Part shown: positions 35,234 through 53,231 of the stretch, in pieces
Layout: each line of letters begins with the position of its first letter
Position numbering within the stretch: position 1 is the first letter of the stretch
NCBI RefSeq assembly: GCF_900101095.1
Contig: NZ_FNFM01000003.1
Location: forward strand, 124,001 to 188,000
Direction: 5' to 3'
From: Actinopolyspora mzabensis
GTDB lineage: Bacteria > Actinomycetota > Actinomycetes > Mycobacteriales > Pseudonocardiaceae
DNA length: 64,000 nt
Notes under the pieces: model-generated
What the model was told of the DNA's origin: nothing
The model's input: only the letters and a program-made list of their open reading frames with translations
Database searches by the model: none
Program-made: the position numbers and the translations under genes

Positions 35234-36997
35234 TCAGCGCACTCGGTGGGTTCCGTCCGGGAGGCGTCGGGTGTAGCCCTCGCGGGCGAGCCGCTCCAGC
35301 AGCGGGACGACCACGCGGCGACTCGTGCCCAGTGCCTCCCGCGCCCCGCTCGGGGTGAACGGTTCCGAAAGTCCGGCCAACACGTCCCGGGCCCGCTGCA
35401 GCGCTCCCGGCAGCAGGTAGATTCCCTCGGCGATCCGAAGCAGTTGCCCGGCCTTGTTCGCCACGCCGAGTTGTTCGGCGTCCAGCCCGAGTTCGCGGAG
35501 TTCTTCCGCGGTGGGCGCGTCGAAGGGGTGTTCGGCCAGTCGAGCACGGATCGCGGCCACGCCCCGCCGCACGTGCTCGCTCAGCTCGGGACCTTGCAGC
35601 CGCAGCCTGCCGTTGCCCGTCCGGATCCCGGCGGCAGTGGCCGAGTCCAGCACCAGCGCCAGCAACGAGGTGTGGGGCAGGCACAGTTGTCGCACTGCCT
35701 CGTGCTCGGAGAGACCGTCGGCCATCGGGTCCTCCCGGTGGAGCCGTTCGAGGAGCTCGACGAGTCGTGCCGCGTACTCGTCCCGGGCGGCCGGTTCCAG
35801 CAGCCAGTCCCCGGTCACCAGGGCGTGTGGGGGAGGGGAGGCCCCCATCACGCGCAGCTCCGAGGCGCGGATCGCGCGGTTTCTCGCGAGCAGTTCCGCA
35901 CCGGCGGGCTGTTGTCCCGTGCGCTCCAGTTCGCGAGCGCGGTCGGCGGCAGCGCCCCGGCGGCGCAGCTCCGGTGGGCACACGTCGAGCACGTGCACCC
36001 CGGTGGGGATCAGGTGCTGTCCGGCGTCCCGCAGTAGCGCGTTGTCCCCGATCCGCAGTGGCAGCTCCGCTCGCAGCGACAACCGGGCGGTGTCGGCTCC
36101 CAGCGGTCGCAGCCGCGCTCCGGTGGTGGTCGCACCGATGTGCATGCCGAGTTCGCCTGGCAGTTCGCCCGCTCCCCGGTCTCGCAGCCGCACGTCCACG
36201 AGATCGGTGCTCCGCCAGGCTCCCGGTGTCAGCAGCGCGTCTCCCCGGGCTAGCTCTCCGGCGTGCGCGCCGCGCAGGTTCAACGCGACCCGCGCCGTCG
36301 CGCGGACCGTTTCGTGCTCCTCGCCGAGGCTCTGCAGCCCCCGGATCGTCACGCGTTTCCCGGTTCCGGCCACCTCGAGCTGGTCGCCTCTGCTAAGCGT
36401 GCCCGCCGACAGCGTCGCGGTCACCACCGTGCCCGCTCCACGAATGCTGAAGCAGCGGTCCAGCCAGAGCCGCACGTCGGCGGTGGGATCCGGATTCGGC
36501 AGCTCACCCGCGAGCTCCTCCAGTTTCCCGGTGAGTTCGGGCAAGCCGTCCCCGGTGGTCCCGCTGACCACCACCTCGGGAACTCCCGACAGCGAGCTGT
36601 CGGACAGCCGCCGCCGCGTCTGTTCCAACGCGGGGAGCGGGTCGGCGAGATCGCCACGCGTGATCGCCAGCACTCCCCGCCGCACGCGCAGCGCGTGCAG
36701 GGCCTGGAGGTGTTCGTCCGACTGCGGCATCCACCCCTCGTCGGCGGCCACCACGAACAGCACGCCCGCGACCTCGCCCACCCCCGCCAGCATGTTGCGC
36801 ACGAACCGCTGATGGCCCGGCACGTCGACGAACGCCATCACCTCGCCACCGGGCAGGGTTGTCCACGCGAATCCCAGGTCGATGGTCAGCCCGCGACGTC
36901 GCTCCTCGTCCCACCTGTCCGGATCGGTGCCGGTCAGGGCTTTGATGAGTGTGGATTTGCCGTGGTCCACGTGGCCTGCTGTGGCGATCACGTGCAT
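35234..36997 (-). CDS. selB: Selenocysteine-specific elongation factor SelB
   Basis: A 587-residue translational GTPase. It begins MHVIATAGHVDHGKSTLIKALTG (G1), has RRRGLTIDLGFAW (G2), FVDVPGHQRF (G3) and ITRGDLAD in the NKxD position (G4, here as TRGD). EF-Tu-like domains 2 and 3 follow, and the C-terminal 240 residues are winged helices (ending REGYTRRLPDGTHRVR) that bind the SECIS hairpin. It brings Sec-tRNA to UGA codons. The start overlaps the selA stop by ten bases, so the two are translationally coupled. Confidence 0.95.
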   Translation of the reverse strand: MHVIATAGHVDHGKSTLIKALTGTDPDRWDEERRRGLTIDLGFAWTTLPGGEVMAFVDVPGHQRFVRNMLAGVGEVAGVLFVVAADEGWMPQSDEHLQALHALRVRRGVLAITRGDLADPLPALEQTRRRLSDSSLSGVPEVVVSGTTGDGLPELTGKLEELAGELPNPDPTADVRLWLDRCFSIRGAGTVVTATLSAGTLSRGDQLEVAGTGKRVTIRGLQSLGEEHETVRATARVALNLRGAHAGELARGDALLTPGAWRSTDLVDVRLRDRGAGELPGELGMHIGATTTGARLRPLGADTARLSLRAELPLRIGDNALLRDAGQHLIPTGVHVLDVCPPELRRRGAAADRARELERTGQQPAGAELLARNRAIRASELRVMGASPPPHALVTGDWLLEPAARDEYAARLVELLERLHREDPMADGLSEHEAVRQLCLPHTSLLALVLDSATAAGIRTGNGRLRLQGPELSEHVRRGVAAIRARLAEHPFDAPTAEELRELGLDAEQLGVANKAGQLLRIAEGIYLLPGALQRARDVLAGLSEPFTPSGAREALGTSRRVVVPLLERLAREGYTRRLPDGTHRVR

Positions 36998-38313
36998 GAC
37001 GCGCCTCCCACGGCCGAATCCGTCGCCGGCGCACTCCGGCGGATCGTCTCGGTCAGCTCCGCGTCCCGCTCCGGCTCCAGCGCGAACAGGTCGACCAGGC
37101 AGTTTCCCCGTTCGACCCTGGTCAATACCGGCGGCACATTGTGGCGGAGCCGTTCGGAGCAGTGCTCGGGCAGCACGACGGCCGCGCTGGGCAGCTTCAC
37201 TCCCGGTGCTCCACCACCACCGATACCCGCGGTGGTGTCCGCCGTCGTCGCCGCCACACCCGCCGCCCGCGCCGACTCCGCGATCCGTTCGGCACGGGCC
37301 CGCAGTTCCCGCTGGGAGCATTCCAGCGCACGCGCGGTCGGAGTGGGAGGTCCGCACAGCGTGGCGTGCAGTGCGGCCAGGGTGAGCTTGTCGGGACGCA
37401 GCGCACGGGCCAGTGGATGCTTCCGGAGCTTGTCGACGATGGCTGCCTTGCCGAGCAGCAGCCCGGCCTGTGGACCGCCGAGCAGCTTGTCGCAGCTGGC
37501 CACCACCAGGTCCGCCCCCGCCCGCAGTGCGCCGCGCGCGTCGGGTTCGTCCGGCAGCCTCGGGTGCGGTTCCAGCAGTCCGGATCCGATGTCGACGACC
37601 AGTGGCGCGTCCAGAGCACCGAGTTCGCCCGGCGCGACCGAGGAGGTGAACCCGCTGATCACGAAGTTGGAGGGGTGAACCTTGAGGACGAATCCGGTTT
37701 CCGCCCCGATCGCCGCTCGGTAGTCGGCGAGCTCGACGCGGTTGGTCGTGCCGACCTCGCGCAGCCGCGCGCCGGTGGAGCACAGCAGGTCGGGGATACG
37801 GAATCCGGCGCCGATCTCGACCATCTCGCCGCGCGCCAGCATGATCTCACGGCCCGCGGCCAGGGCGGTGGCGGCCAGCGTGAGGGCGGCCGCCCCGTTG
37901 CCCACCACGTGTGCGCTCTCCGCCTCGGGGACCGCGTCGAGCAGGCCGCGCGTGACGCTCGCCCCACGACGGCCACGCTGACCGGTGTGGAGATCCAGCT
38001 CGACGTCGCAGGTTCCCGCGGCTTCCCGCAGGGCCAGCACCGCGGCATCCGAGAGGGGAGCGCGGCCCAGGTTGGTGTGCAGCAGTACGCCCGTGGCGTT
38101 GAGCACCGGGCGCAGACCCCCGGTCGCGGTGGGCAGGTTCGCCGCCGTTTCCGTGATCACCTGATCGGCGGGGATCTCACGGGCCCGCGCGCGTCGCTGT
38201 GCGTCGTGGACCACGCGTTTCACCCGCTGTCGCCCGAAGCGTTCGACGGCCGCGGCTATGCGGGGCTCGCTGAGGACCCGGTCCGTGGCCGGGATGTTCC
38301 GCCGCTCGTCCAC
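36988..38313 (-). CDS. selA: L-seryl-tRNA(Sec) selenium transferase SelA
   Basis: A 441-residue PLP enzyme. The N-terminal helical region that binds tRNA-Sec (about 1-60) is followed by LNATGVLLHTNLGRAPLS, VELDLHTGQRGRRGA, VVGNGAAALTLA, and the PLP lysine Lys276 in SCDKLLGGPQAG. It converts Ser-tRNA-Sec to Sec-tRNA-Sec with selenophosphate. A GTG start is used without a strong ribosome site. It is first in the selA-selB pair. Confidence 0.95.
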   Translation of the reverse strand: MDERRNIPATDRVLSEPRIAAAVERFGRQRVKRVVHDAQRRARAREIPADQVITETAANLPTATGGLRPVLNATGVLLHTNLGRAPLSDAAVLALREAAGTCDVELDLHTGQRGRRGASVTRGLLDAVPEAESAHVVGNGAAALTLAATALAAGREIMLARGEMVEIGAGFRIPDLLCSTGARLREVGTTNRVELADYRAAIGAETGFVLKVHPSNFVISGFTSSVAPGELGALDAPLVVDIGSGLLEPHPRLPDEPDARGALRAGADLVVASCDKLLGGPQAGLLLGKAAIVDKLRKHPLARALRPDKLTLAALHATLCGPPTPTARALECSQRELRARAERIAESARAAGVAATTADTTAGIGGGGAPGVKLPSAAVVLPEHCSERLRHNVPPVLTRVERGNCLVDLFALEPERDAELTETIRRSAPATDSAVGGASCT

Positions 38314-38496
38314 GTTCGTGACGATACGCAGCGGGAGAGCGTTCGTTCGGCTCCGTACGCTGGCACGTCGGACGTATTTTTCGATTGAATACCTCTGTTG
38401 TTTCAGTGTTGACCGAAATTAATCCAAAACTCAAACCTCTGCGCCCCATCAACTCAACAGATGATTCGCAAGGACGTGCCCGTGCACAATCGAGTC

Positions 38497-39084
38497 ATGA
38501 CCGAACGGAAACCGCCGGGGACGGACTTCGAGACCTGGATCGACCGTCAGGTCCGTACGGCCAGGGAGCGCGGGGATTTCGACGACCTGCCCGGAACCGG
38601 CAAGCCGCTGCCCGATCTCGGCAACGAGAGCGAACTGTCCTGGGTCAAGAAGTACGTCGAGCGGGAGGGGCTGTCCACCGAGGCGCTGCTGCCGCCCGCC
38701 GTGCAGTTGCGCAAGGAGATCGACCGGCTCCCGGAGACCGTGGCCGAGCTGCGTTCCGAGCAGGCGGTGCGCGAGCAGGTCGGTGAGCTCAACCTGCGTA
38801 TCGCCGAGTGGCTGCGGGCTCCCAGCGGTCCACGCGTCAAGGTCGCGCCCGTGGATGCGGATGAGGTCGTGCGCCGCTGGCGGGAGCGACGTGCAACCGC
38901 GGCCGAAGCCGAGGACACGGTCTCGACCGAGCATGCCCACGCCGACGAGAGTGCCGAACCCGGCCCGAGCGGACGCGGTGCTCGTTCCGGCGGGCCGCGC
39001 ACCTGGTGGCGCAGGCTGGTGCGTGGCGGAGGCGGACGGGAATCGAACCCGCCTGACCGAGTTGCTCGGCCACGTCGGTTTTGA
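38497..39084 (+). CDS. DUF1992 protein whose 3' end overlaps tRNA-Sec
   Basis: A 195-residue protein from ATG 38497. Residues 8-110 form the DUF1992 (DnaJC28-like) domain: FETWIDRQVRTARERGDFDDLPGTGKPLPDL and KKYVEREGLSTEALLPPAVQLRKEIDRLPETV. The C-terminal 85 residues are not conserved. The last 20 codons run antisense through the tRNA-Sec gene and give the typical antisense-tRNA string GRESNPPD. Function of the domain is unknown in bacteria. Confidence 0.82.
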   Translation: MTERKPPGTDFETWIDRQVRTARERGDFDDLPGTGKPLPDLGNESELSWVKKYVEREGLSTEALLPPAVQLRKEIDRLPETVAELRSEQAVREQVGELNLRIAEWLRAPSGPRVKVAPVDADEVVRRWRERRATAAEAEDTVSTEHAHADESAEPGPSGRGARSGGPRTWWRRLVRGGGGRESNPPDRVARPRRF

Positions 39085-39119
39085 AGACCGCGGGGGCCAC
39101 CAGGCACCCTTACGCCTCC
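39024..39119 (-). tRNA. selC: Selenocysteine tRNA, tRNA-Sec(UCA)
   Basis: A 96-base tRNA on the minus strand, beginning GGAGGCG and ending CGCCTCC-G-CCA with an encoded CCA. The anticodon loop CTTCAAA holds TCA (39080 region), flanked by CGGT/ACCG. The extra arm is long, GGCCGAG-CAA-CTCGGTC, as in tRNA-Sec, and the T loop is TTCGATT. The long acceptor helix would have eight pairs with a mismatch at the last one. It lies between selB-selA and selD, which settles its identity. Confidence 0.95.
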
Positions 39120-39180
39120 AGTGCCGTCATCCCGCGTGTTGTGCCATGCCGTCGGCCGTCCGGTGGACTAGCTTCGGGGC

Positions 39181-40194
39181 ATGACCGATGCCGGGACCGT
39201 CACGACCGAAAACTACCGCCTGACACGGTACGCGCACGGTGGTGGGTGTGCTTGCAAGATCCCCGCGGGCGAGCTGGAGTCCATGGTCGCCGGTGCCGGG
39301 ATCTCCGGCGGCGCCCCGGCGGGCGGTGAGGTGCTGATCGGTGCCGGTGACGACGCCGCCGTGGTGCGGTTGCACGGCGACACCGCGATCGTGGCCACGA
39401 CGGACTTCTTCACCCCCGTGGTCGACGATCCCTACGACTGGGGCCGGATCGCGGCTGCCAACGCGCTGTCCGACGTGTACGCGATGGGGGCACGCCCGCT
39501 GGTGGCGTTGAACCTGCTCGGTTGGCCACGTGAGTCGCTGCCGATGGAGCTGGCCGAACGGGTGCTGCGCGGTGGCGCGGATGTCGCGGAACTGGCGGGA
39601 TGCCCGGTAGGAGGTGGCCACAGCCTCGACGATCCCGAGCCGAAGTACGGTATGGCCGTGACGGGCACGGCCGCTGCCACTCGGCTGCTGCGCGAAGACG
39701 CCGGAACCCCCGGTGCTCCGCTGTCGTTGACCAAACCGCTCGGCATCGGGGTGCTCAACACCCGGCACAAGGCCACCGGAGAGGTTTTCCCGCAGGCGAT
39801 CGAGGCGATGACCACCCTCAACGACACGGCCTCGCGGGACGCTCTGGCGGTGGGTGCCGAGTGCGCCACCGACGTCACCGGATTCGGGCTGCTCGGGCAC
39901 CTGCGCGAACTCACCCGTGCCAGCGGTGTTTCCGCGGTGCTGGACTCGAGCGCCGTTCCCTACCTGGAGGGGGCGCGCGAGGCGGTCCGGGACGGGTACG
40001 TCAGCGGGGGGACACGTCGCAATCTGCGCTGGGTGGGCGAGTGCACCGATCTCTCCCGTGTGGACGAGGACGAAGCGCTGCTGCTGGCCGACGCGCAGAC
40101 CTCGGGGGGACTGCTCGTCGCGGGGGAGCTGCCGAACGCCCCGGTGATCGGCCGGCTGATCACCGCCGAGGAGAACGCCATCACGGTTCGCTGA
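39181..40194 (+). CDS. selD: Selenophosphate synthase SelD (Cys form)
   Basis: A 337-residue protein starting with ATG 61 bp from the divergent tRNA-Sec. The catalytic loop is HGGGCACKIP: Cys23 stands where many SelD proteins have Sec or Cys (E. coli Cys17) and Lys26 corresponds to the essential Lys20. Further motifs are GAGDDAAV, TTDFFTPVVDDPYDWGRIAAANALSDVYAMGARP (ATP and metal site) and ATDVTGFGLLGHL. It makes selenophosphate from selenide and ATP. Because it has Cys, it does not need its own product to be made. Confidence 0.96.
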   Translation: MTDAGTVTTENYRLTRYAHGGGCACKIPAGELESMVAGAGISGGAPAGGEVLIGAGDDAAVVRLHGDTAIVATTDFFTPVVDDPYDWGRIAAANALSDVYAMGARPLVALNLLGWPRESLPMELAERVLRGGADVAELAGCPVGGGHSLDDPEPKYGMAVTGTAAATRLLREDAGTPGAPLSLTKPLGIGVLNTRHKATGEVFPQAIEAMTTLNDTASRDALAVGAECATDVTGFGLLGHLRELTRASGVSAVLDSSAVPYLEGAREAVRDGYVSGGTRRNLRWVGECTDLSRVDEDEALLLADAQTSGGLLVAGELPNAPVIGRLITAEENAITVR

Positions 40195-40271
40195 GCGCGC
40201 GCCTGTCCGCTCCACCGCGCGTGAACACGTAGTGGCGGCCCGCCTGCGGAGGCAGTCGCTCAGTCCGCGGA

Positions 40272-40913
40272 TCACTTACCGGTGACCTGGCAGAGCCCCT
40301 CGTTGGTGCTGTTGAGCACGTCCACCAGGATCTGGCGCAACGTGGTGCCGTCCCGCCGGGTAAGCCAGGCGTGCATCGCCGAACCGAAGCACGAGACCAT
40401 GGTCATCGACCAGGCGCCGGGGCGCGGGTCGCAGCTGGGATCGGTTCCGGTGTGCTCGGCGACCAGCTCGGTCATGTCCTGCATCCAGCGCTGCCGCATC
40501 AGATGCATCTCGTACTGACCGGTGGACTCCAGGACTTGCAGCAGTTCGGCACGCATCAGGTGTTGTTCGCGGTCTGCCTCCATGCGGTCGGCCGCGTCGA
40601 GCATCGCCGCGGCCATGGCGCGCATGGGGTGTTCCTCGGAGCCGCGCGCGTTCAGCGCCTCGCGCACGTACTCGAGCTCGTTGCCGAGGTCGCCGAAGAG
40701 CACCGCGTCCTTGCTGGGGAAGTACCGGAAGAACGTCCTGGGGGCGATGTCGGCGGCACGGGCTATCTGTTCCACGGTCGTGGCCTCGAATCCCTGTTCC
40801 CGGAACAGTTCCAGGGCCGCCGACTCGATGCCCGCTCGGGTCCTGGCCGCCTTGACGGCTCGTCTGCCCTGGCCCTCCGTTTCGTCGATCGAACCCACCG
40901 CAACGCTGGTCAT
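40272..40913 (-). CDS. TetR-family regulator of the adjacent exporter
   Basis: A 213-residue protein from ATG 40913 (GAGG upstream); a TTG 36 bases earlier is possible. The N-terminal helix-turn-helix reads SAALELFREQGFEATTVEQIARAADIAPRTFFRYFPSKDAVLF. The C-terminal part is a ligand-binding domain with an MftR/TetR_C-like pattern. It is divergent from an EmrB/QacA-type exporter; a 16-bp palindrome between them is the likely operator. Confidence 0.92.
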   Translation of the reverse strand: MTSVAVGSIDETEGQGRRAVKAARTRAGIESAALELFREQGFEATTVEQIARAADIAPRTFFRYFPSKDAVLFGDLGNELEYVREALNARGSEEHPMRAMAAAMLDAADRMEADREQHLMRAELLQVLESTGQYEMHLMRQRWMQDMTELVAEHTGTDPSCDPRPGAWSMTMVSCFGSAMHAWLTRRDGTTLRQILVDVLNSTNEGLCQVTGK

Positions 40914-40958
40914 GGCCTCAGGTTCCTCGAAAGCGGAGTTCGGCGTCAACTGTGCCCG

Positions 40959-40995
40959 TTGTCACCGATGACAAATGGCAGTACTGCCATATTCT
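40959..40995 (+). promoter_or_regulatory. TetR operator within the exporter promoter
   Basis: ATGGCAGTACTGCCAT (40975-40990) is a perfect 16-bp palindrome. It sits between a -35-like ATGACA (40968-40973) and a -10-like TATTCT (40990-40995), so bound repressor would block RNA polymerase. A second symmetric element TTGTCA-CCGA-TGACAA (40959-40974) adjoins it. Confidence 0.7.
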
Positions 40996-41017
40996 GGTGC
41001 GGGGAAAGGAGACACGC

Positions 41018-42724
41018 ATGTCCGACGGTCACGCCCGCCACGGGGCGGCGGGTGCTGCAACGACACCCGACAAAGGAGAGGAGGGTGCCCTGGCGGAGGG
41101 CATCGACGTGCGGGTCTACCGCCGCAGGTGGGCGACCCTGCTCGTGCTGTGTCTGGCCTTGTCGGCCACGATGCTCGCGAACACCTCGCTCAGCGTCGCG
41201 TTACCCCAGCTCTCTCGCGCGCTGGGAGCCTCCACCTCGGCGCAGCAGTGGTTCTCGGACGCCTACGCCTTGGTGTTCGCCGGCCTGCTGTTCACCACCT
41301 CCTCGATAGCGGACCGCTACGGGCGCAAGTGGATGCTGCAGGCCGGGATGGTGCTGTTCGGCCTGGTGTCGGTCTACGTGTGGCTGTTCGTGGGGTCCAG
41401 CACCGAGATGATCGCCGCACGGGCGCTGCTGGGTGTGGGCGGCGCCATGATCATGCCGGTGACGCTGTCCATTCTGACCAGTGTCTTCCCCAGCGGGGAG
41501 CGCACCAAGGCGGTCGGTATCTGGGCCGCCGTTTCCGGCGCGGGCAGCGCCGCGGGGCCGGTTATCGCCGGGGTGCTGTTGCAGTACTTCTCCTGGGAAT
41601 CGGTGTTCGTGATCAACGTGCCGGTGGTGATCGTCGGTGTGATCGCCGGTATCCGCTACATCCCGTCGCACACCGGCACCGAAGGGGGGCACGGCGGGCT
41701 CGACCTGCTGGGGGCGCTGCTGTCCACCGCCGGGATCACGATCGCGGTCTACGCGCTGATCGAGGCGCAGTACGTCGGCTGGTTGTCACCCCGCACGTTG
41801 TCCCTGGTGGCCCTGGGGCTGGTGTTGTTGGCGTTGTTCGCGCTGTGGGAGCGCCGGGTGGCCGATCCGATGCTGGATGTTCGGCTGTTCCGCAACCGTG
41901 GTTTCTCCGCGTCGGCGGTGGCGTTGACGCTGGTGTTCTTCGCGATGATCGGTGTGTTCTTCGCGCTGAGCCAGACCCTGCAGCTCGTGTTCGGCTACTC
42001 GCCGCTGATGGCTTCCACCGCGATGCTGCCGATGTCGGTGATGATGATGCTCATCGCTCCGCAGGTTTCCAGGATCGTGGACAGGTTCGGCCCGCGTGAC
42101 ACCATTTCCGTCGGACTTTTGCTGGCGGCGTTGGGCATGGTGGGGCTGAGCACCCTCGGCGTGGATTCCGGGTACTGGCAGATCCTGCTGCCGCTGTCGT
42201 GCACGGCGGCGGGTATGTCGCTTGCGATGGCTCCGGCCACCGATCAGCTGATGGCCAACGTGCCCCGTGAGCGCGCGGGGATGGGTTCGGCCACCAACGA
42301 CGTCACCCGCGAGGTGGGGGCGTCGTTGGGTGTGGCCGTGCTGGGCAGCGTGCTGGGAGGTAGCTATGCCGCCCGGATCTCGGACTCGCTGACCGGGCTG
42401 CCCGAGCGGGTGCGGCAGACCGCCGAGGAGTCGCTGCCCGGCGGCATGATGGTCGCCGAGTCGTTGGGCGCGCGGGGGGAGCGGCTCGCCCGCGAGGTGT
42501 CGGTGGCCTGGATGGACGCCTCGCAGACCGCGTACCTGGCCGCTGCGGGGCTGATCGCGGTGGCAGCGCTGGTGGCGTGGTTCTTCCTGCCCGGCAGGAC
42601 GCAACGCACCGAGGTGCGGGCCTCCTCGGGAACCGAGCGGGGTGCGGCCGAGGAGCCGGACAGGGCCACCGAGAAGCCTGGCAGCGCCACCGAGAGGTCC
42701 GACACGGCTGTCACCGAGCAGTGA
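41018..42724 (+). CDS. EmrB/QacA-type 14-helix drug efflux MFS transporter
   Basis: A 568-residue membrane protein from ATG 41018 with GGAAAGGAG upstream. The first helix contains LSATMLANTSLSVALPQL (motif D1 region of DHA2 proteins), motif A is SSIADRYGRKWML, and motif C is GAGSAAGPVIAGVLL in helix 5. The central loop and 14 predicted helices fit the QacA/EmrB group, which export cationic dyes and antibiotics by proton antiport. The Glu/Thr-rich C-terminal tail of about 45 residues is cytoplasmic. Regulated by the divergent TetR. Confidence 0.92.
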   Translation: MSDGHARHGAAGAATTPDKGEEGALAEGIDVRVYRRRWATLLVLCLALSATMLANTSLSVALPQLSRALGASTSAQQWFSDAYALVFAGLLFTTSSIADRYGRKWMLQAGMVLFGLVSVYVWLFVGSSTEMIAARALLGVGGAMIMPVTLSILTSVFPSGERTKAVGIWAAVSGAGSAAGPVIAGVLLQYFSWESVFVINVPVVIVGVIAGIRYIPSHTGTEGGHGGLDLLGALLSTAGITIAVYALIEAQYVGWLSPRTLSLVALGLVLLALFALWERRVADPMLDVRLFRNRGFSASAVALTLVFFAMIGVFFALSQTLQLVFGYSPLMASTAMLPMSVMMMLIAPQVSRIVDRFGPRDTISVGLLLAALGMVGLSTLGVDSGYWQILLPLSCTAAGMSLAMAPATDQLMANVPRERAGMGSATNDVTREVGASLGVAVLGSVLGGSYAARISDSLTGLPERVRQTAEESLPGGMMVAESLGARGERLAREVSVAWMDASQTAYLAAAGLIAVAALVAWFFLPGRTQRTEVRASSGTERGAAEEPDRATEKPGSATERSDTAVTEQ

Positions 42725-42777
42725 GCCCGCTCGTTCAGTGACCGCCGTGCCGGGGTGGTGGTCGCGGTCGGGGTGTC

Positions 42778-42850
42778 GATTTCGCGCGAAATCTACGTCG
42801 TGCTGGAGGCACCGCCCCCACCGGCGCGGCGATTTCGCGCGAAATCGCCG
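42778..42850. repeat. Paired palindromes GATTTCGCGCGAAATC
   Basis: The 16-bp perfect palindrome GATTTCGCGCGAAATC occurs at 42778-42793 and at 42831-42846, 53 bp apart. The second copy extends to a 24-bp perfect palindrome (42827-42850). They lie between the exporter stop and the stop of the convergent DUF397 gene. They may act as terminators for both directions or as protein-binding sites. Confidence 0.75.
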
Positions 42851-42852
42851 GT

Positions 42853-43044
42853 TCAGTTCCCGGCGTGGTCCTGGGCGAGACTGCGCAGGAAGTCGTTCCA
42901 CCGGGCGCGGGGGAACAGCAGTGAGTCGCCGTGCGGGCGTTTGGAGTCCCGCGCGGCGACCCCGTGCTCGGTGGCGGCGATCTCCACGCAGTTCGCCTGG
43001 CTACTGCTTCGACTGCTCTTGCGCCAGTGCTTCACGGATGCCAC
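42853..43044 (-). CDS. DUF397 protein
   Basis: A 63-residue protein from GTG 43044; its GGAG ribosome site overlaps the end of the XRE gene. WRKSSRSSSQANCVEIA and RDSKRPHGDSLLFPRARWNDFL are the DUF397 signature. DUF397 genes almost always follow an XRE/DUF5753 regulator, as here; the pair probably works as a two-part regulatory switch in actinomycete development or metabolism. Confidence 0.9.
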   Translation of the reverse strand: MASVKHWRKSSRSSSQANCVEIAATEHGVAARDSKRPHGDSLLFPRARWNDFLRSLAQDHAGN

Positions 43045-43048
43045 GGAC

Positions 43049-43915
43049 TCACTCCTTCTCGTGCTCGGCCGGTTCGTCGGCGAGGCGCGCGATGATCTCG
43101 CTGGAATCATCCGGGGAGAACGCGAGTTCGCGCAACCGCCACAGGGAGCGTTCCGCGGCGTCGACGTGCTCGGGCTGCTCCAGGAACGCGCTGTTGCCCC
43201 GGTGCTCCAGATACACCAGGTTCGGCTGCTTCGGGAAGTCCAGCAGCACGAACGGCCCCTCCATGCCGGGATGGATGCCCGCACGCTGCGGCACCATCCG
43301 GACGGTGACGTTCGGCCGCAGGTTGCTCTCCGCCAGGCGCAGCAGCTGCCGCCGCATCACGCCGGGGTCGGCGGTCGGGCGGCGCAGCACCGGTTCGTCC
43401 AGCAGCACCTCCAACCGTGGTGCGCGGCTGCCGAGCAGCACGGTCTGCCTGCCGATGCGGGCCTCGACCAGCCGTCGCACCTCGCGCTCCGGCAGCTCGT
43501 GGGTGGTGCCCCGGATGACCGCCTCGGCGTACTCGTCGGTCTGCAGTAGTCCTGGGATGAATTGTGTTTCCCAGCCGTGGATCGCGGTGGCCTCGGACTC
43601 GAACCGCATCAGGTCCTGCCACATCGCGGGAAGCGCGGCGTGCTGCACCTGCCACCAGTTGCGATCGGTGCCGTTGCGCACCAATGCCAGGATCTCCTCG
43701 CGCCGCTGGGTGGGCACGCGGTAGAGCCCCAGCAACGCCGCGACGTCGTCGGCGGCCAGGCCGCGAGTCCCCGTCTCCATCCGGCTGAGCTTGCTCATCG
43801 AGATGCCCAGCGACCTCGACACCTCGGCGGCGCTGAACCCGTTGCGGTCCCGCAGTTCCCGCAACTCGCCGGAGACCCGTCTGACTCGTGCCGGGATCCC
43901 GCTGCGTCGTTCCAT
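43049..43915 (-). CDS. XRE helix-turn-helix regulator with DUF5753 domain
   Basis: A 288-residue protein from ATG 43915 with GAAGGG upstream. HTH at about 15-60: ELRELRDRNGFSAAEVSRSLGISMSKLSRMETGTRGL. The DUF5753 part has QFIPGLLQTDEYAEAV, RQTVLLGSRAPRLEVLLDEPVLRR and GPFVLLDFP, with YLEH near the end. It is translationally linked with the DUF397 gene. A palindrome TTGACC-AGT-GGTCAA (43962-43976) lies 47 bp upstream of its start. Confidence 0.93.
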   Translation of the reverse strand: MERRSGIPARVRRVSGELRELRDRNGFSAAEVSRSLGISMSKLSRMETGTRGLAADDVAALLGLYRVPTQRREEILALVRNGTDRNWWQVQHAALPAMWQDLMRFESEATAIHGWETQFIPGLLQTDEYAEAVIRGTTHELPEREVRRLVEARIGRQTVLLGSRAPRLEVLLDEPVLRRPTADPGVMRRQLLRLAESNLRPNVTVRMVPQRAGIHPGMEGPFVLLDFPKQPNLVYLEHRGNSAFLEQPEHVDAAERSLWRLRELAFSPDDSSEIIARLADEPAEHEKE

Positions 43916-45199: not shown

Positions 45200-45301
45200 C
45201 CTTGCCCCCGAAAGATCGCGACGCCGGAATTCCTCCCGGCGCCGCGACACACGTTGCTGGATCCGACGCGACGGTGCTCGACAGCCCGAGCGGAAACCTG
45301 A

Positions 45302-46561
45302 TCAGTCCTCGCCGATCACCGGTGGAGCGACGCGCGGCAGGTCACCGTCGAAGTAGCCGTAGTCACCGACGAGGTAACTCGGCGTCTCGTGCTCCTCGTC
45401 CTCCTCGCCCTGCTGGCCACGACCACGCGGCGCACCCGCCATACCACCGCGAGCGTTCCCCGCTCCGGAGGAGGCGCCGCTCGTCGCGGCGGAAGCGGTG
45501 GACGGGCGCGCGAGCCCCGACTGCCCACCCGGGCCGAGGGAACGGCCGCCGAGACCGGCGGAACCCCGGCCACCCGCTCCGGAACCGGTTGCACTGCCCG
45601 AGCCGCCCGCGAGCGAACCGAGACCGCGTATCGGGATCCGGCTGCCGGGAGCGCGTCCGGTCCCGCCCGCGACGCCGGAACCACCCGGCGTGCGACCGTT
45701 GCCCGAACCACCTCCGGCGCCGCCGCCCGGAGCGCCGGACTGCCCCGGCCGATATCCGGGGGAGCCGCCTTCCGGCGGGCGCTGCCACGCGGATTGACTG
45801 CCCGCGGGCTGGTTGATCCCCGAACCGCCCCGGCCCGCCGACTGGCCCGAAGTGCCGTTGCCTGCCGTGCCGGTGCCGTGCGCGCCGCCCGAAGTGTCCA
45901 GCGAGCCGCTCCAGGAGCTGCGGGTGCCCGCGGCAGCGCCGCTGCCCATGCCCCGGGAAGTGGCGAAGCCACCGACCTCGGGGTTCGATCCGGAGCGCAC
46001 GCCGGTTTCGACGCCGCCCGGCGGGGGAGCGGTGAACGTCGGGGTCGCGCTGACGGTGCTCTGCGAGGCGGTGTCGTAGGATTTGAACGCCGTGACCGCG
46101 TCCTGCCGCAGCTTCTCGTTGTGCGCCAACGCCTGCTCGTTGTCGGTCTTGCCGCCGGTGAGGCCTGCCCAGGCCTGCCCGAGGAAGTTCTCCTCCGGGA
46201 CGGGCTTCTCCTCGGACGCGGCGGGAACGGAGGAGTACACCCTGCTGAAGGCCTGGCCCTGCTCCTCCAGCCGCACCGCCTCGGCCGTGGCGTTGTCGGC
46301 CGCGACCTCGGTCCACAGCACCACCGGCGACATGGCGCTCTGCATGGCCTCCTGGCCCTTGGACTGGTTCACGGCCCCGGCCCGCTTCAGCCTGTCCTTG
46401 ATCTCGGTGGCCAGCTCGCGCATGTACCGCTCCTCGGCACGCCAGCGGCTGCTCTTCTCGTGGAGCGCCTCGGCTCCCTTACCGCTGTTGACCCAGGAGC
46501 GCATCTGCTCCAGCTGCGCCCCGTCGAGATTGGACGGCGGCAGCGTGCGTCTGTCCCCCAT
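45302..46561 (-). CDS. PPE/WXG100-like type VII substrate with Gly-rich tail
   Basis: A 419-residue protein; ATG 46561 follows GGGGAG. Residues 1-about 165 are helical (LEQMRSWVNSGKGAEALHEKSSRWRAEERYMRELATEIKDRL and VNQSKGQEAMQSAMSPVVLWTEVA), the layout of actinomycete PPE-like proteins. Then comes a Pro/Thr linker and about 200 residues of Gly/Ser/Ala low complexity, and a conserved end TPSYLVGDYGYFDGDLPRVAPPVIGED. It is probably exported by an ESX system encoded elsewhere, with the downstream EspG as chaperone. Confidence 0.8.
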   Translation of the reverse strand: MGDRRTLPPSNLDGAQLEQMRSWVNSGKGAEALHEKSSRWRAEERYMRELATEIKDRLKRAGAVNQSKGQEAMQSAMSPVVLWTEVAADNATAEAVRLEEQGQAFSRVYSSVPAASEEKPVPEENFLGQAWAGLTGGKTDNEQALAHNEKLRQDAVTAFKSYDTASQSTVSATPTFTAPPPGGVETGVRSGSNPEVGGFATSRGMGSGAAAGTRSSWSGSLDTSGGAHGTGTAGNGTSGQSAGRGGSGINQPAGSQSAWQRPPEGGSPGYRPGQSGAPGGGAGGGSGNGRTPGGSGVAGGTGRAPGSRIPIRGLGSLAGGSGSATGSGAGGRGSAGLGGRSLGPGGQSGLARPSTASAATSGASSGAGNARGGMAGAPRGRGQQGEEDEEHETPSYLVGDYGYFDGDLPRVAPPVIGED

Positions 46562-46576
46562 GATTCTGAGCTCCCC

Positions 46577-47167
46577 TCAGGCTTCGGGCAGGTTCTTGAT
46601 CGCGGCTTCGGCGAACTTGGTGAAAATCGGGCACGGATCGGGGCGGTTCTCGCCAGGCCGTACTTGGCCGTTGACCAGTAGAAAACCGTCTTCAGCGACA
46701 TCGACAGCGATGTAGCAACCGATTCCACTTATATTTGCCGCGTAAGCAGGGTAATTATTGATTTCTGTTTTTTCGCCGCCGGGATGCGTCTCTATAGCCT
46801 CTGAGATGGTTCGTTCGAAGTCAGGTGCCACAAATACTCGCCATCCTGAATTGGACCCTGCTTTCCCTTTTTGGTAGCTGCACCCTTGCTGTCCCTCTGA
46901 TGTGCGAGGGTAAGGAGTCCGGTCGGTACCGAGCTTCAGTGCCTGTTGCTTCGTGATGACGGTGCAGGGGTCGGCGATGTCGAGGGATTTGGCGGGTGCG
47001 GTGCGTTCCGGCAGACTCACCCCGGCGCCGCCGCTGGTGCTGGTGGGTGCGCTCGTGCCGGTGTCGGTGGTTTCTTGCGCCGCTTGGCCGGTCTGACCAC
47101 CGCTACATCCGGCGAGCAGCAGCAGTCCGGCTGCCAGGGAGATTCCCGTGGTGACGGTGTTACGCAT
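46577..47167 (-). CDS. DUF3558 lipoprotein
   Basis: A 196-residue lipoprotein: signal MRNTVTTGISLAAGLLLLAGC with the lipobox Cys21, then a Thr/Ser-rich linker and the DUF3558 domain (DPCTVITKQQALKLG, GCSYQKG, VFVAPDF, YPAYAANISGIGCYIAVDV). Four cysteines in the mature part probably form disulfides. The family often sits beside ESX substrates. The DNA between about 46700 and 46930 uses many A/T-ending codons, unlike its neighbours. The start overlaps the upstream gene by eight bases. Confidence 0.85.
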   Translation of the reverse strand: MRNTVTTGISLAAGLLLLAGCSGGQTGQAAQETTDTGTSAPTSTSGGAGVSLPERTAPAKSLDIADPCTVITKQQALKLGTDRTPYPRTSEGQQGCSYQKGKAGSNSGWRVFVAPDFERTISEAIETHPGGEKTEINNYPAYAANISGIGCYIAVDVAEDGFLLVNGQVRPGENRPDPCPIFTKFAEAAIKNLPEA

Positions 47168-47711
47168 TCCGCATCTCCCGGTCGAAGTTGTCGGCGGCGT
47201 TGGCGTCGTCGGTGCGGGTCTGTTCTGCGCTGGAGCGCAGGCTCGCGGCGGTGTCGTTGAACACCTTCGCGAGTTTCAGGTAGTTGGGCATGTACGAGCG
47301 GTCGTCCCCGGAAGCGACTTCGCCGTGAATCGAAGCGGCACCGGTACTGACTGGGTCGGTGCCTGGCGCAGGGACCATCCCCAGATTTTGAACATCTACC
47401 GACCTTTCTTCCAATTCTTGTGCTTTCTCCTCGAAGAAACCCGCCAGCGCGTCGACCTCGTCGGGGTCGACGACCATGCGCGTGTTGTCGCTGATGGCCT
47501 GGGCCAGTTCCGCCTTGGTGCTGGCGCGTTCCTTGATCCGCGCGATGTCGGCGATCTCCTCGGCGAGTCCGGGGCCGGGGAACAGCATGCTGGTGGCCAC
47601 GTCCTGCATCTCGGCGTCCAGCGCCGCCTGGTCCGCGGCGTCCATTCCCGATTGGCCGCCGGCCTCGTTCGTTCCCCCCGCGTTCGACTGGCTGTTCTCC
47701 TCGTCGGCCAC
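47160..47711 (-). CDS. Type VII-linked helical protein (WXG100/EspC-like)
   Basis: A 183-residue protein from GTG 47711, directly after a GGGGGAA site; a GTG at 47729 is the alternative. After an acidic, disordered N-terminus it is mainly helical, with KAELAQAISDNTRMVVDPDEVDALAGFFEEKAQELEER resembling the EspC/DUF2580-like proteins found with PE/PPE-type genes. Ends in a predicted helix LRSSAEQTRTDDANAADNFDREMR. First gene of the type VII cluster, overlapping the lipoprotein gene. Confidence 0.65.
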   Translation of the reverse strand: MADEENSQSNAGGTNEAGGQSGMDAADQAALDAEMQDVATSMLFPGPGLAEEIADIARIKERASTKAELAQAISDNTRMVVDPDEVDALAGFFEEKAQELEERSVDVQNLGMVPAPGTDPVSTGAASIHGEVASGDDRSYMPNYLKLAKVFNDTAASLRSSAEQTRTDDANAADNFDREMRNA

Positions 47712-47963
47712 GCTTCCCCCTGTACTCACTCGGTCGTGCGATGCTCTCGCCCGGCGGCATGATCACTTGCCCATCCGGAACTTACCGCACCGCGCATCCC
47801 GCGTGGGCCGGGTTCAGTACATCCGGCGAAGCGAGCCGTGCTCTTCATACGTCCGTGCGAGCGGAGCGTCATCGGACCAGCGCCGGGCACAGCGCTCGCG
47901 GTTGCGCCGGCTTCTCGTCGGGCGCAGCATCGGCGGCAACGTGTCGGGAGTTGGTGATCGGCT

Positions 47964-50900
47964 ATGCGGGAATGGCTGCGCTGGCCCGTGCTGCGCCAGT
48001 TGACGGGGTCCGACCCGCTCGGTCGTGGCCGGGCGGCCCGTTCCGCCGAGACCGACCGCGAGTACGCCCGCACCGAGGACGCCGAGGCGGTGGTCGGGTC
48101 GGTGTGCCCTTACTGCGCCGTGGGCTGTGCCCAGCGCGTGTACGTGCGGGACGGCGCCGTCACCCAGATCGAAGGCGATCCCGACTCCCCGGTGAGCCGG
48201 GGCAGGCTCTGTCCGAAGGGTTCGGCCAGCCGCTCGTTGGTGACCTCGCCTGATAGGCAGACGAGGGTCGCCTATCGGCGACCGTACGGCACCGAGTGGG
48301 AGGAACTGGATCTCGACACCGCGGTCGACATGATCGCCGACCGGGTGATCCGCACCCGGGACGAGACCTGGCAGGAGACCGATTCGGACGGTACGCGGCT
48401 GCGTCGAACCATGGGAATCGCGAGCCTGGGCGGGGCCACGCTGGACAATGAGGAAAACTACCTCATGAAGAAGCTCTACACCGCCCTCGGCGCCATCCAG
48501 ATCGAGAACCAGGCCCGCATTTGACACTCCTCCACGGTTCCCGGTCTGGGAACCTCGTTCGGCCGTGGTGGGGCCACAACCTTCCAGCAGGACCTCCGTA
48601 ACTCCGATTGCATCGTGATTCAGGGGTCCAACATGGCCGAAGCACACCCGGTCGGCTTTCAGTGGGTGATGGAAGCCAAACGGCGCGGGGCGAAGATCAT
48701 CCACGTCGACCCCCGGTTCACCCGCACCTCGGCGATGGCCGACACTTTCGTCCCGCTGCGCGCGGGCAGCGACATCGCCTTTCTCGGTGGGCTGATCAAC
48801 CACGTGCTGCGGGGTGGGCACTACTTCCACGAGTACGTGGCCGCCTACACCAACGCGGCCACGATCGTCGACGAGTCCTTCGCCGACACCGAGGATCTCG
48901 ACGGGGTGTTCTCCGGCTTCACCGGAAGTGGTTACGACGAGACCAGCTGGTACTACCAGGGAGCGCGGGTCAACCCGGCCGCGGGCGAGCGCGACCAGTG
49001 GCACGACGTTTTCGGTTCACCCGAGCACGACCGAGCCACCTCGGAGGAGGAGTCGGCGCGTCGTGCGGAGCCGGAGACGGACCCGAGCCTGACCCACCCC
49101 CGGTGCGTGTTCCAGATCCTCAAGCGCCACTTCGCCCGCTACACCCCGGAGCTCGTGGAGCAGCTGTGCGGGATCGACCAGGAGCGTTTCCACGAGGTGG
49201 CCGAGGCGCTGGTCGCCAACTCGGGAAGGGAGCGCACCACCGCCTTCGCCTACGCGGTGGGCTGGACCCACCACACGGTGGGGGTGCAGTACATCCGGGC
49301 CGCCTCGATCCTGCAGTTGCTGCTCGGCAACATCGGCAGACCCGGCGGTGGGATTCTCGCGCTGCGCGGCCACGCCAGCATCCAGGGTTCGACCGACATC
49401 CCCACGCTGTTCGACCTGCTGCCCGGCTACATCCCGATGCCGCGAGCACACCCGAACCTCTCGCTGGACGAGTTCGTGGCCACCAACGCCGCCGACAAGG
49501 GGTACTGGGGCAACATCCGCGACTACGTCGTCAGCCTGCTCAAAGCCTGGTGGGGTGAGTACGCCACCGCCGAGAACGATTTCCGGTTCGATCATCTGCC
49601 CAGGCTCACCGGCGACCACGGCACTTTCCAGACCGTGATCGACCAGATCGAGGGGAGGGTGCGTGGCTACTTCGTCGTCGGCGAGAACCCGGCCGTGGGC
49701 ACCGCCAACGCGCACCAGCAGCGCATGGGGCTGGCGAATCTGGACTGGCTGGTGGTGCGCGATCTGAACATGATCGAGACGGCCACGTTCTGGCGGAATG
49801 GTCCGGAGATCGAGAACGGCGAGACGAGTCCCTCCGAGATCGGCACCGAGGTGTTCTTCCTGCCCGCCGCAGCGCACACCGAGAAGGACGGTACCTTCAC
49901 CAACACCCAGCGCATGCTGCAGTGGCACCACAAGGCGGTCGAACCGCTCGACGACCAGCGCAGCGACCTGTGGTTCTTCTACCACCTGGGGCTGCGGATC
50001 AAGTCCAAACTCGCGGCCCGACGATTCGAACGGGACGCGCGACAGCGGGAACGCGACCGCCCCGTGCTGGAGCTGACCTGGGACTACCCCACCGAAGGGG
50101 ATCTCGCCGAACCGAGTGCGGACGCCGTGCTCCGCGAGATCAACGGCACCGATGCCGAGGGGCGGGCACTGTCCTCCTACACCCGGCTGCGCTCCGACGG
50201 TTCCACACGTGCGGGGTGCTGGATCTACTGCGGCGTCTACGCGGGTGAGATCAATCGGGCCGCACGGCGTGAACCGGGGGAGCAGCAGTCCTGGGTGGCT
50301 CCCGAGTGGGGCTGGTCCTGGCCCGCCAACCGGCGGATCCTGTACAACCGCGCCGCCGCCGACCCCGCGGGCGCGCCGTGGAGCGAGCGCAAGGCTTACG
50401 TGTGGTGGGACGCCGAACAGCGGCGCTGGACCGGCCACGACGTGCCCGACGTCGACGTGGCCAAGCCTCCCGATTACGAGCCCGCCGCCGACGCGCACGG
50501 TCCCGACGCGCTGCGCGGCACCGATCCCTTCATCATGCAGGGTGACGGGCTCGGCTGGCTGTACGCCCCCGCGGGGTTGCACGACGGGCCGCTGCCCACC
50601 CACTACGAACCACAGGAATCACCACTGCGCAATACGCTGCATGCCACGCAGCGCAACCCGGCGCGGCGGCTTTACCACCGCCCGGAGAACCGATACCAAC
50701 CCAGCGGTGCCGAACCGGGAGCGGAGGTGTTCCCGTACGTGTTCACCACGTTCCGACTCACCGAGCACCACACGGCCGGTGGAATGAGCCGGTGGCTGCC
50801 ACACCTGGCCGAGCTGGCGCCCGCGATGTTCGTCGAGCTCTCCCCTGAGCTGGCCGTGGAGCGGGGACTGCGGCATCTCGGCTGGGCCACGGTGATCACC

Positions 50901-51287
50901 GCGCGCGGAGCGATCGAGGGACGCGTGCTGGTCACACCACGTATCCGGCCGTTGCGTTCGAACGGCAGGACGCTGCACCAGATCGGCATCCCGTGGCACT
51001 GGGGACCCAACGGGTTGACCACTGGTGACGCCGCCAACGAGTTGCTCAACGTCGCGTTGGACCCCACTGTGCACATCATGGAGACCAAGGCGGGAGCCTG
51101 CGACATCCGCCCCGGCAGGAGACCACGGGGGGTGGAGCTGCACAGGTTGATCGCCACCTACCGCGCTCGTGCGGGAATCACCGAGCACACCGGCGGCGAC
51201 GCTCCGCCCCCGGATAACGGGCTGCCGGAGAACGGTACGCGTCCCTCGGGAACGGACACGGTCGACGGAGGTGAGGATGAGTCCTGA
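47964..51287 (+). CDS. fdhA: Formate dehydrogenase catalytic subunit, selenoprotein (TGA read as Sec187)
   Basis: The frame from ATG 47964 meets TGA at 48522-48524 and continues without another stop to 51287, giving 1107 residues with selenocysteine at 187. Around the TGA the protein reads NQARI-Sec-HSSTVPGLGTSFGRGG, the active-site motif of molybdenum/tungsten formate dehydrogenases (Sec then catalytic His). The N-terminal [4Fe-4S] ligands are Cys48, Cys51, Cys55 and Cys83 (CPYCAVGC and GRLCPKG). The middle binds the bis-MGD cofactor (MQGSNMAEAHP-like segment, GGATLDNEENY), and the C-terminal domain (IRPLRSNGRTLHQIGIPWHWG) completes the DMSO-reductase fold. No Tat signal is evident, so the enzyme may be cytoplasmic. 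It oxidises formate to CO2. First of three overlapping genes. Confidence 0.95.
48522..48567 (+). promoter_or_regulatory. Bacterial SECIS element of fdhA
   Basis: Directly after TGA, a helix forms between CTCCTCCACGG (48527-48537) and CCGTGGTGGGG downstream, topped by a perfect 7-bp hairpin GGTTCCC (48536-48542) / GGGAACC (48548-48554) with loop GGTCT. The loop sequence and its distance of 18 bases from the UGA are the same as in the E. coli fdhF SECIS that SelB recognises. The two helix options share bases, so one of them dominates. Confidence 0.85.
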
Positions 51288-52287
51288 CAGGCCGTCCGAG
51301 CACCCGCTCTTCGAGCTCGAACGCTCGATGCGAACCGGCGAGCACGCCCGGGAAACGGCACCGGAACCAGCGGTGGGGTCCTCGAACGGTAACCGACTCA
51401 GCGGCCCGTTGGCAGATCCCAGCGCCGAGGCGGGCTATTCGGAGCAGCATCCCGATCGGATGGGGTTTTTCACCGACACCAGCGTGTGCATCGGGTGCAA
51501 GGCCTGCGAGGTCGCCTGCAAGGAGTGGAACCTGCTGGAAGAGGACGGGCTGGAACTTACCGGCATGTCCTACGACAACACCACCGACCTCGGAGCCACC
51601 ACCTGGCGGCACGTGGCATTCGTCGAACAGCGCATCGACCTCTCCACGCGCGCCCGCGTGGATATCGGAATGCCCGGGATGGGGCCCCCGGAAACGGCCA
51701 CGGAAGAGGTCGCGGGCTCCGAGGTGCGGTGGCTGATGTCCTCCGACGTCTGCAAGCACTGCACGCACGCCGCCTGCCTGGACGTGTGTCCGACGGGAGC
51801 GTTGATCCGCAGCGAGTACGGCACGGTCGTGGTGCAGGACGACGTGTGCAACGGATGTGGTTACTGCGTCCCGGCCTGTCCCTACGGAGTGATCGACATC
51901 CATCCCGAGAACGGCGGCGCGTTCAAGTGCACCCTGTGCCAGGACCGACTCGGCTCGGGAATGACCCCGGCCTGTGCCACCGCCTGTCCCACCGAGTCCA
52001 TCCAGTACGGTCCGCTCGACCAGTTGCGGGAGCGGGCCGAGCAACGCCTCGAACAGCTGCACGAGCAGGGAATCACCGAGGCCCGGCTCTACGGGCAGGA
52101 CCCCACCGACGGTGTGGGAGGTGACGGAGCCTTCTTCCTGCTGCTGGACGAACCCGAAGTGTACGGGCTGCCACCCGATCCGGTGGTCACCACCAGGGAT
52201 CTGCCCGCCATGGCCTGCTACGCCCTGGCCGCGGCCGCCACGGCGGCCGTGACCATCGCGAGCTGTTTCCTGGGAGGACGGCGTTGA
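51277..52287 (+). CDS. fdhB: Formate dehydrogenase iron-sulfur subunit
   Basis: A 336-residue protein; ATG 51277 overlaps the fdhA end by 11 bases. After an 60-residue N-terminal extension it has four ferredoxin-type cysteine groups: CIGCKACEVACKEWN, CKHCTHAACLDVCPTGAL, CNGCGYCVPACPYGV and CTLCQDRLGSGMTPACATACPTE. These hold four [4Fe-4S] clusters that pass electrons from the catalytic subunit to the membrane subunit, as in FdnH/FdoH. Near the C-terminus ACYALAAAATAAVTIASCFLGG forms a membrane anchor. Confidence 0.95.
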   Translation: MSPDRPSEHPLFELERSMRTGEHARETAPEPAVGSSNGNRLSGPLADPSAEAGYSEQHPDRMGFFTDTSVCIGCKACEVACKEWNLLEEDGLELTGMSYDNTTDLGATTWRHVAFVEQRIDLSTRARVDIGMPGMGPPETATEEVAGSEVRWLMSSDVCKHCTHAACLDVCPTGALIRSEYGTVVVQDDVCNGCGYCVPACPYGVIDIHPENGGAFKCTLCQDRLGSGMTPACATACPTESIQYGPLDQLRERAEQRLEQLHEQGITEARLYGQDPTDGVGGDGAFFLLLDEPEVYGLPPDPVVTTRDLPAMACYALAAAATAAVTIASCFLGGRR

Positions 52288-53231
52288 CCGGAAACGAACC
52301 CGCCGGGGCGACGGGAGCAGGCGCCGCCGAGGAGGCCGACGGGGAACGGGCGACCTTCCGGTCCTACTACGGCAGACCGATCATCAAGGAACCGACCTGG
52401 AAGGTTCCCGACGTGCCCGCCTACCTCTATCTGGGAGGCATGGCGGGCGCCTCGTCCGTCATGGGGGCACTCGCCCAGCTGCGTGGGTATTCCCGGCTGC
52501 GCCGGGTCGGGCTGCTCTGCGTGGCGGGAGGTTCCGGCGCCAGCGTGCTGGCGCTCATTCACGATCTCGGTCGGCCGTTGCGGTTTTTGAACATGTTGCG
52601 CGTGTTCAAACCCACCTCGCCGTTGAGCGTGGGATCCTGGATCCTCGCCCCGTTCTCCGCGCTCAGCGGCGCGGCCGCTGTCTTCGAGTTCACCGAGGTC
52701 GCCCGTCCGCTCGGCAACGCGGCAGCGTGGTGTGCGGCCTTGCTGGCCCCGGCCATGACGACCTACACCGCTGTGCTGCTCGCGGACACGGCGGTGCCGG
52801 GATGGCACGAGACGCGCCGTGAACTTCCCTTCGTGTTCGCCTTCAGCTCGGTCTCGGCGGCAGGCTCGCTGGGAACGATGTTGGCGCCACGCGCGGAGGC
52901 CGGGCCCGCGCGGCGCATGGCCCTGGTGGGCTCCCTCGGTGAACTCGTGGCGAGCCGCGTGCTGGAACACCGGGCGGGCAGAATCGCCGAGGTGTACCGC
53001 TCGGGTCGGGCGGGAAGCACGCTACGGGCGGCCCGGATCATGGCAACGGGGTGCGCTGTCGGTGCCGTGTTCGCCCGGCGCGGCACGAGCGCGGCGATTC
53101 TGGCCGGTCTCTGCGGTACGGCAGCCTCGATCGCCACTCGCTACGGAGTGTTCGAAGCCGGGCGGGAGTCCGCCCGCGATCCCTACTACACGGTGGTGCC
53201 GCAGCGGGAGGCTCGCCAGGTGGAGGAATGA
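52284..53231 (+). CDS. NrfD-type membrane subunit of formate dehydrogenase
   Basis: A 315-residue membrane protein starting at TTG 52284, overlapping the fdhB stop by four bases. After a hydrophilic N-terminus (YYGRPIIKEPTWKVPDVPAYLYLGGMAGASS, the NrfD opening) come about eight helices, with HDLGRPLRFLNMLRVFKPTSPLSVGSWIL typical of NrfD/PsrC quinone-binding proteins. It takes electrons from FdhB to menaquinone. In this group NrfD replaces the cytochrome b subunit of E. coli enzymes. Confidence 0.92.
   Translation: MTGNEPAGATGAGAAEEADGERATFRSYYGRPIIKEPTWKVPDVPAYLYLGGMAGASSVMGALAQLRGYSRLRRVGLLCVAGGSGASVLALIHDLGRPLRFLNMLRVFKPTSPLSVGSWILAPFSALSGAAAVFEFTEVARPLGNAAAWCAALLAPAMTTYTAVLLADTAVPGWHETRRELPFVFAFSSVSAAGSLGTMLAPRAEAGPARRMALVGSLGELVASRVLEHRAGRIAEVYRSGRAGSTLRAARIMATGCAVGAVFARRGTSAAILAGLCGTAASIATRYGVFEAGRESARDPYYTVVPQREARQVEE

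Follow-up and report, generated by a model that had tools for sequence, protein, structure and literature searches.

Selenocysteine genes and fdhABC in the window

The window analysed here, a stretch of 64,000 nucleotides from Actinopolyspora mzabensis (contig NZ_FNFM01000003.1, positions 124,001 to 188,000), carries selB, selA, a tRNA-Sec gene and selD for selenocysteine (Sec) decoding and, 7.8 kb from selD, a formate dehydrogenase (FDH) operon, fdhABC, with an in-frame TGA in fdhA. The roles of SelA, SelB, tRNA-Sec and SelD are established in the E. coli system. A preliminary description made from the letters alone had proposed a complete Sec set together with a Sec-containing FdhA operon, and this proposal was supported by matches to NCBIfam, Pfam, ARAGORN and Rfam for selA-selB, tRNA-Sec(UCA) and selD. 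All four genes of the Sec-decoding trait thus lie in the window, and seryl-tRNA synthetase (SerRS) is encoded on another contig of the same genome (TIGR00414, 429 bits).

selB (35234..36997, minus strand) encodes the Sec-specific elongation factor of 587 aa (TIGR00475, 258 bits; cut-off 242), with a winged helix at its C-terminus (PF09107, Pfam). Its start, read from the sequence, is the ATG at 36997, which gives a 10 bp overlap with the selA stop. The coordinates of the preliminary description were right overall, except that its 849-aa SelB frame (35234-37783) is too long at the start, the TIGR00475 match beginning at residue 265. selA (36988..38313, minus strand) encodes L-seryl-tRNA(Sec) selenium transferase of 441 aa (TIGR00474, 393 bits; PF03841). 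The tRNA-Sec gene (selC; 39024..39119, minus strand; anticodon UCA; GCCA 3' end encoded) was identified by both ARAGORN and Rfam (RF01852, 78.1 bits); it is the best of seven RF01852 matches in the whole genome, the second reaching 50.8 bits over 71 nt. Divergent from selA and selB lies selD (39181..40194, plus strand), which encodes selenide water dikinase of 337 aa (TIGR00476, 374 bits) with Cys, not Sec, in HGGGCACK, presumably the SelD active-site motif. FdhD is encoded elsewhere in the genome, outside the window.

fdhA (47964..51287, plus strand) is a single frame with stops at codons 187 and 1108 only, and encodes an FDH alpha subunit of 1107 aa with the predicted Sec187 (NF041513, 1920.7 bits; cut-off 1400); an NF041513 search of the strain's own genome gave one match with TGA. 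The TGA (48522..48524, plus strand) sits at the catalytic position, as had been claimed: in an alignment with the solved FDHs 1h0h and 9qm0, codon 187 stands opposite the X in QARIxHS of Desulfovibrio gigas 1h0h, which we take to be Sec. The 4Fe-4S subunit gene fdhB (51277..52287, plus strand; 336 aa) has a hydrophobic stretch near the C-terminus of its product, and its start is most likely the ATG at 51277, which follows GGAGGTGAGG and overlaps the fdhA stop; on a longer frame from 51169 it matched TIGR01582 at 178 bits, below the cut-off of 335, and Fer4_11. The last gene, fdhC (52284..53231, plus strand; 315 aa), encodes an NrfD-like membrane subunit with PF14589 and PF03916 over cut-off.

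The codon is conserved among relatives. The best 80 named relatives share 66-80% identity (best segment) over nearly the whole read-through FdhA, the closest being Actinopolyspora mortivallis at 80%. A stop stands at the equivalent of codon 187 in 79 of these 80, as TGA in 76 and as TAG in three (Geodermatophilus and Blastococcus), and the remaining one, from Actinoalloteichus, has TGC. FdhA with one in-frame TGA was also found in 8 of 8 genus genomes searched, the window's included; this genus count refers to a TGA in frame within FdhA, the same-codon position being established for the named relatives. Accordingly, a sequencing error at 48522-48524, which the preliminary description had named as a possible refutation, is very unlikely. 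More generally, the lone stop in a frame of 1107 codons would fit one point change, whether in a pseudogene or as a misreading of a Cys codon (TGC/TGT), and yet we give this explanation very little credence: it is opposed by the conservation of the codon, by the full hairpin described below, present here and not in the 10 Cys homologues examined, and by Sec machinery at the same locus.

Across 93 sequences, comprising the window, the 80 named loci and 12 fetched from further genomes, the site carries TGA, TAG or a Cys codon in every case and Trp in none. This pattern speaks against reading of the UGA by ordinary suppression (e.g. as Trp), as does the published tRNA-Sec(CUA) of Geodermatophilaceae reported in PMC5330540. 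A restart downstream of the UGA, for which the GTG at 48615 would be available as a start, would yield a product that lacks the Fe4S4 domain and the beginning of the molybdopterin domain. We regard Sec-free expression by either route as more improbable still than a pseudogene or sequence error. The expectation that an automatic gene caller would split fdhA is correct where the caller does not handle recoding, but plasmid records of Arthrobacter (L130) and Tsukamurella (L132) have one coding sequence across the TGA; a third actinobacterial plasmid record was opened and has no gene table there.

A conserved hairpin downstream of the UGA codon

A bacterial Sec insertion sequence (SECIS) hairpin was identified at 48536..48554 (plus strand), with the stem GGUUCCC/GGGAACC and the loop GGUCU; taking the T of TGA as base 1, the stem starts at base 15. 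All six inner pairs are formed in 79 of 79 TGA-coded and 4 of 4 TAG-coded sequences (83/83, window included), whereas the full six are found in 0 of 10 Cys-coded FdhA sequences, in which three or four pairs form; likewise, 83/83 stop-coded sequences have GGT or AGT as their loop codon, against 0/10 Cys-coded ones. The numbers of independent sequences are below 83 and 10 because some rows are identical or overlapping: the Cys-coded L074 and L095 are identical over the compared stretch, and the 80 named loci and the 12 further sequences, which include nine stop-free FdhA among the matches listed in the order-wide search, may overlap.

To assess covariation, the window was aligned with 59 of the 80 named loci, which gave 56 distinct rows. 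In 55 of these 56, a Val codon and a Gly codon pair through their third bases (U-A, C-G, U-G, G-C or G-U), the exception being a Cys gene. This pair covaries: 24 cells carry a change on each side, compared with 3.0 on average in shuffles, and none of 500 shuffles came as high. Several observations weigh against the hairpin, however. The covariation is limited to this one pair, and the number of pairs changed on both sides was matched by 275 of 500 shuffles. In addition, the outermost pair is open in 28 of 56 distinct rows. The 39-nt hairpin stretch is no stabler than its shuffles (z −0.89; 36 of 200 as good), and a 51-nt stretch folds otherwise, retaining part of the hairpin and showing no excess stability. 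Fold stability was therefore dropped as support, and the hairpin is argued from its conservation and from the contrast with the Cys genes.

On this evidence, the FdhA gene of the window has the hallmark of a bacterial SECIS, a predicted hairpin downstream of the UGA with a G in its apical loop. Carrying TGA and all six inner pairs, it does not fit Cys-containing FdhA. Moreover, the contrast between the 83 stop-coded and 10 Cys-coded sequences suggests RNA-level selection on the actinobacterial hairpin.

Taken together, the window can with near certainty be read as encoding a functional Sec-decoding system of the bacterial type, which supplies Sec to an FDH that probably uses molybdenum (or tungsten). 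In such a system, SerRS would charge tRNA-Sec with serine, SelA would turn the seryl-tRNA into Sec-tRNA using selenophosphate from SelD, and SelB would bring the Sec-tRNA to the ribosome at the UGA at 48522. Recognition of the GGUCU-loop hairpin just downstream by SelB would then allow UGA187 to be read as Sec, the putative metal ligand of FdhA. Judging by the FdhA-FdhB-NrfD layout, FdhA, FdhB and the NrfD-like FdhC probably act together to oxidise formate and deliver its electrons to the membrane.

Among other features of the locus, the interval from selA to tRNA-Sec contains, on the opposite strand, a gene for a DnaJ-C28-domain protein (PF09350; 38497..39084, plus strand), whose frame overlaps the tRNA-Sec gene by 61 bp in antisense. 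The gap between selD and fdhA holds genes for a major facilitator superfamily (MFS) transporter, a helix-turn-helix DUF5753 protein, an EspG-like protein and a DUF3558 protein. A scan of the window for TGA-bridged coding frames found two, fdhA and one at 10628 on the minus strand; the latter has coding-like codon use on both sides and is possibly two genes in one frame.

Distribution of the trait and comparison with known systems

The co-occurrence of SelB with UGA-coded FdhA was evaluated in a family sample of 79 genomes, the window's included, with a threshold of E <= 1e-100 for FdhA. FdhA was matched in 46 genomes, with TGA in 42 and without a stop in 4; among the 42, one (G294) has its gene on two contigs and below the cut-off, and one (G350) also has TAG and is broken in two. 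Since EF-Tu also matches TIGR00475, with EF-Tu-like matches peaking at 215 bits, SelB was counted at 232 bits or more, or when over the cut-off together with neighbours. By this score-and-coverage count SelB is present in 46 genomes, and in 36 of these it also passes the curated cut-off. It was found in 41 of 42 genomes with TGA-coded FdhA, in 1 of 4 with stop-free FdhA and in 4 of 33 without FdhA, so that 41/42 stands against 5/37 (Fisher p ~1e-15, relatedness uncorrected); with the curated cut-off alone, the figures are 33/42 and 3/37.

Two points count against so close an association. Ten of the 46 SelB calls fall under the curated cut-off, and one genome with TGA-coded FdhA (G366) has no scoring SelB, the SelB search giving an EF-Tu-like match there. 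In this genome, which has SelA and tRNA-Sec, SelB residues 119-587 do match, and part of the SelB stretch reads N. A SelA-SelB fusion or a loss of SelB in G366 was considered and rejected: the SelA and SelB pieces lie in one open frame, but the run of N makes the stretch unreadable rather than showing a loss. Truncated sel genes in two further loci (L021 and L033) also lie on contigs with runs of 100 N. The second of these contigs, from Saccharomonospora halophila 8, carries tRNA-Sec, a SelB piece and a TGA-coded FdhA with the hairpin. In PMC5029168 this strain is credited with SelD and no further selenium genes, and the runs of 100 N may explain the miss.

The trait had been described as patchily spread. 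It is indeed patchy, yet it is also common: TGA-coded FdhA occurs in 42 of 79 sampled family genomes, and order-wide 259 of 397 genomes carry an FdhA that scores above the NF041513 cut-off, Cys- and TAG-coded cases included. In the flanks fetched for the 80 named loci (up to 10 kb, shorter on small contigs), at least one sel gene was found in 52 and all four in 25. TAG-coded FdhA with the same hairpin was observed in L077, L081 and L084 (Geodermatophilus, Blastococcus) and in L105 (family f16); tRNA-Sec was not found in the fetched flanks of the first three.

A recent horizontal acquisition of the Sec genes and fdh, in place of inheritance as a block, appears unlikely. A complete fdhABC-selD-tRNA-Sec-selAB set on an Arthrobacter plasmid typed conjugative would favour it, and transfers among actinobacteria are listed in PMC5029168. 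Against it, FdhA and, by the score-and-coverage count, SelB occur in 8 of 8 genus genomes (SelB over the curated cut-off in 7), and the order tRNA-Sec/selD/MFS/fdh is shared by Actinopolyspora mortivallis (L007), Halosaccharopolyspora (L008) and Saccharopolyspora (L009), although selA was not found in the flank of L008. On the plasmid in question, pYA7-1a of Arthrobacter sp. YA7-1 (L130), fdhABC-selD-tRNA-Sec-selA-selB stands beside a Tn3-family transposase, and the Sec trait there is possibly mobile.

FdhA is the commonest bacterial selenoprotein, reported in 822 organisms (PMC5029168), and sel genes close to fdhA are described in PMC5029168 and PMC1794560. The window resembles the FDH1 cluster (FdhA1B1C1) of Actinomycetospora chiangmaiensis, which PMC7176365 presents as a three-subunit FDH with a Sec-containing alpha subunit, there of 1078 aa, and clustered SelA/SelB. 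According to that report (2020), formate removal by the Sec-FDHs needs selenite, the proteins were detected by proteomics, and the SECIS was sought with bSECISearch. A. chiangmaiensis is described there as having three Sec-FDHs and SelD apart from the FDH1 cluster, in contrast to the window, whose genome has a single TGA-coded FdhA and where selD and tRNA-Sec are near selA.

More distant systems differ further. The FDH alpha subunits of Desulfovibrio (1h0h, 9qm0, 8cm4) and E. coli FdnG (1kqf) are nearly full-length homologues of the window FdhA, but unlike them it has no obvious twin-arginine signal at its N-terminus, as read by eye. E. coli-type FDH-N, a periplasmic enzyme exported by the Tat route, has a cytochrome b gamma subunit where the window has the NrfD-like FdhC. 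In Geodermatophilaceae, the same protein and the same hairpin accompany TAG in place of TGA, and their UAG-Sec code has been published (Mukai 2016, as cited in PMC5330540). The system of the window is therefore already known and ordinary for actinobacteria, given the similar published Actinomycetospora operon (PMC7176365) and the frequency of TGA-coded FdhA in the family.

A candidate membrane selenoprotein in related genomes

Five family genomes have SelB without Sec-FdhA (G111, G132, G192, G334 and G385, the last with Cys-coded FdhA), and genomes that keep SelB in this way should hold another selenoprotein. A scan for TGA-bridged frames over about 19 kb around their sel genes found a candidate in two, and a look for its motif added two more. 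In a profile search of the 397 genomes (E <= 1e-12), the candidate was found in 14, all five SelB-only genomes among them; within the family sample it occurs in 6 of 46 SelB genomes and 0 of 33 others. SelA is present in all 14 candidate-carrying genomes of the order. The candidate is absent from the window's genome by the same profile search.

The candidate, of about 235 aa, is a candidate membrane protein by its hydrophobic sequence and has the motif SGS(T/S/V)-Sec-(S/T)xNSA. It lies at 14018-14728 of L136, 4128-4820 (minus strand) of L135, 17041-17724 of L137 and 16598-17281 of L138, and also in L139-L153 and L155. All 15 profile matches that cover the site have TGA, a partial sixteenth match not reaching it; with one more TGA-coded member, from one of its two places in Nonomuraea gerenzanensis, TGA is the codon in 16 of 16 covering members, and a Cys form did not turn up at these thresholds. 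In the 15-member alignment, the TGA site is the sole all-Cys/Sec column. Mean pairwise identity is 37% before the TGA and 44% after it, rising to 66% and 63%, respectively, when the ten residues nearest the site are taken. Restart is disfavoured, because 7 of 15 members have no start codon within the next 19 codons.

A hairpin with the loop GGUCU or a variant (GGUCC, AGGUU, CGGGC, GGGGC) follows, its loop standing at base 36 from the T of TGA, and 88.6% of its cells pair, compared with at most 55% when slid. Its covariation was not significant: 35 of 500 shuffles reached the score, 245 of 500 had as high a percentage of paired cells, and the outermost pair fails in 10 of 15 members. Pfam and NCBIfam gave no consistent match, one of the 15 members matching SoxE_N at 0.00095, and a search of the openly licensed literature in PubMed Central found no description of the candidate.

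Just upstream of the candidate in L136 lie genes for a thioredoxin/MauD-like protein with CPLC and a Cys-rich protein (12881-13504 and 13476-14015). The former label is our own, with no Pfam match behind it; the Cys-rich protein has a Tat-like (twin-arginine) start that is rich in arginine. At E <= 1e-30, both genes were found within the fetched flanks of 6 of the 15 loci (L139, L140 and L143-L146); they lie about 3 kb off in L137, give weak matches in L149-L152 and were not found in the flanks of L142, L147, L148 and L153. A methylamine-dehydrogenase identity of these neighbours, guessed from gene order and motifs, found no support in Pfam and PDB searches.

These observations suggest that the Sec machinery of relatives probably has a second use, in a membrane selenoprotein family so far undescribed, of about 235 aa, UGA-coded, with a GGUCU-type loop about 32 nt downstream and, in 6 of 15 cases, with the two genes above as direct neighbours. 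Such a family would account for SelB without Sec-FdhA in the sampled genomes. For Actinopolyspora mzabensis itself, the window offers a clear instance of a selenoprotein gene that lies hidden. The candidate family, if real, would add a selenoprotein without a seen Cys form, and its neighbours prompt the guess that actinobacteria may use selenium for thiol chemistry at the membrane.

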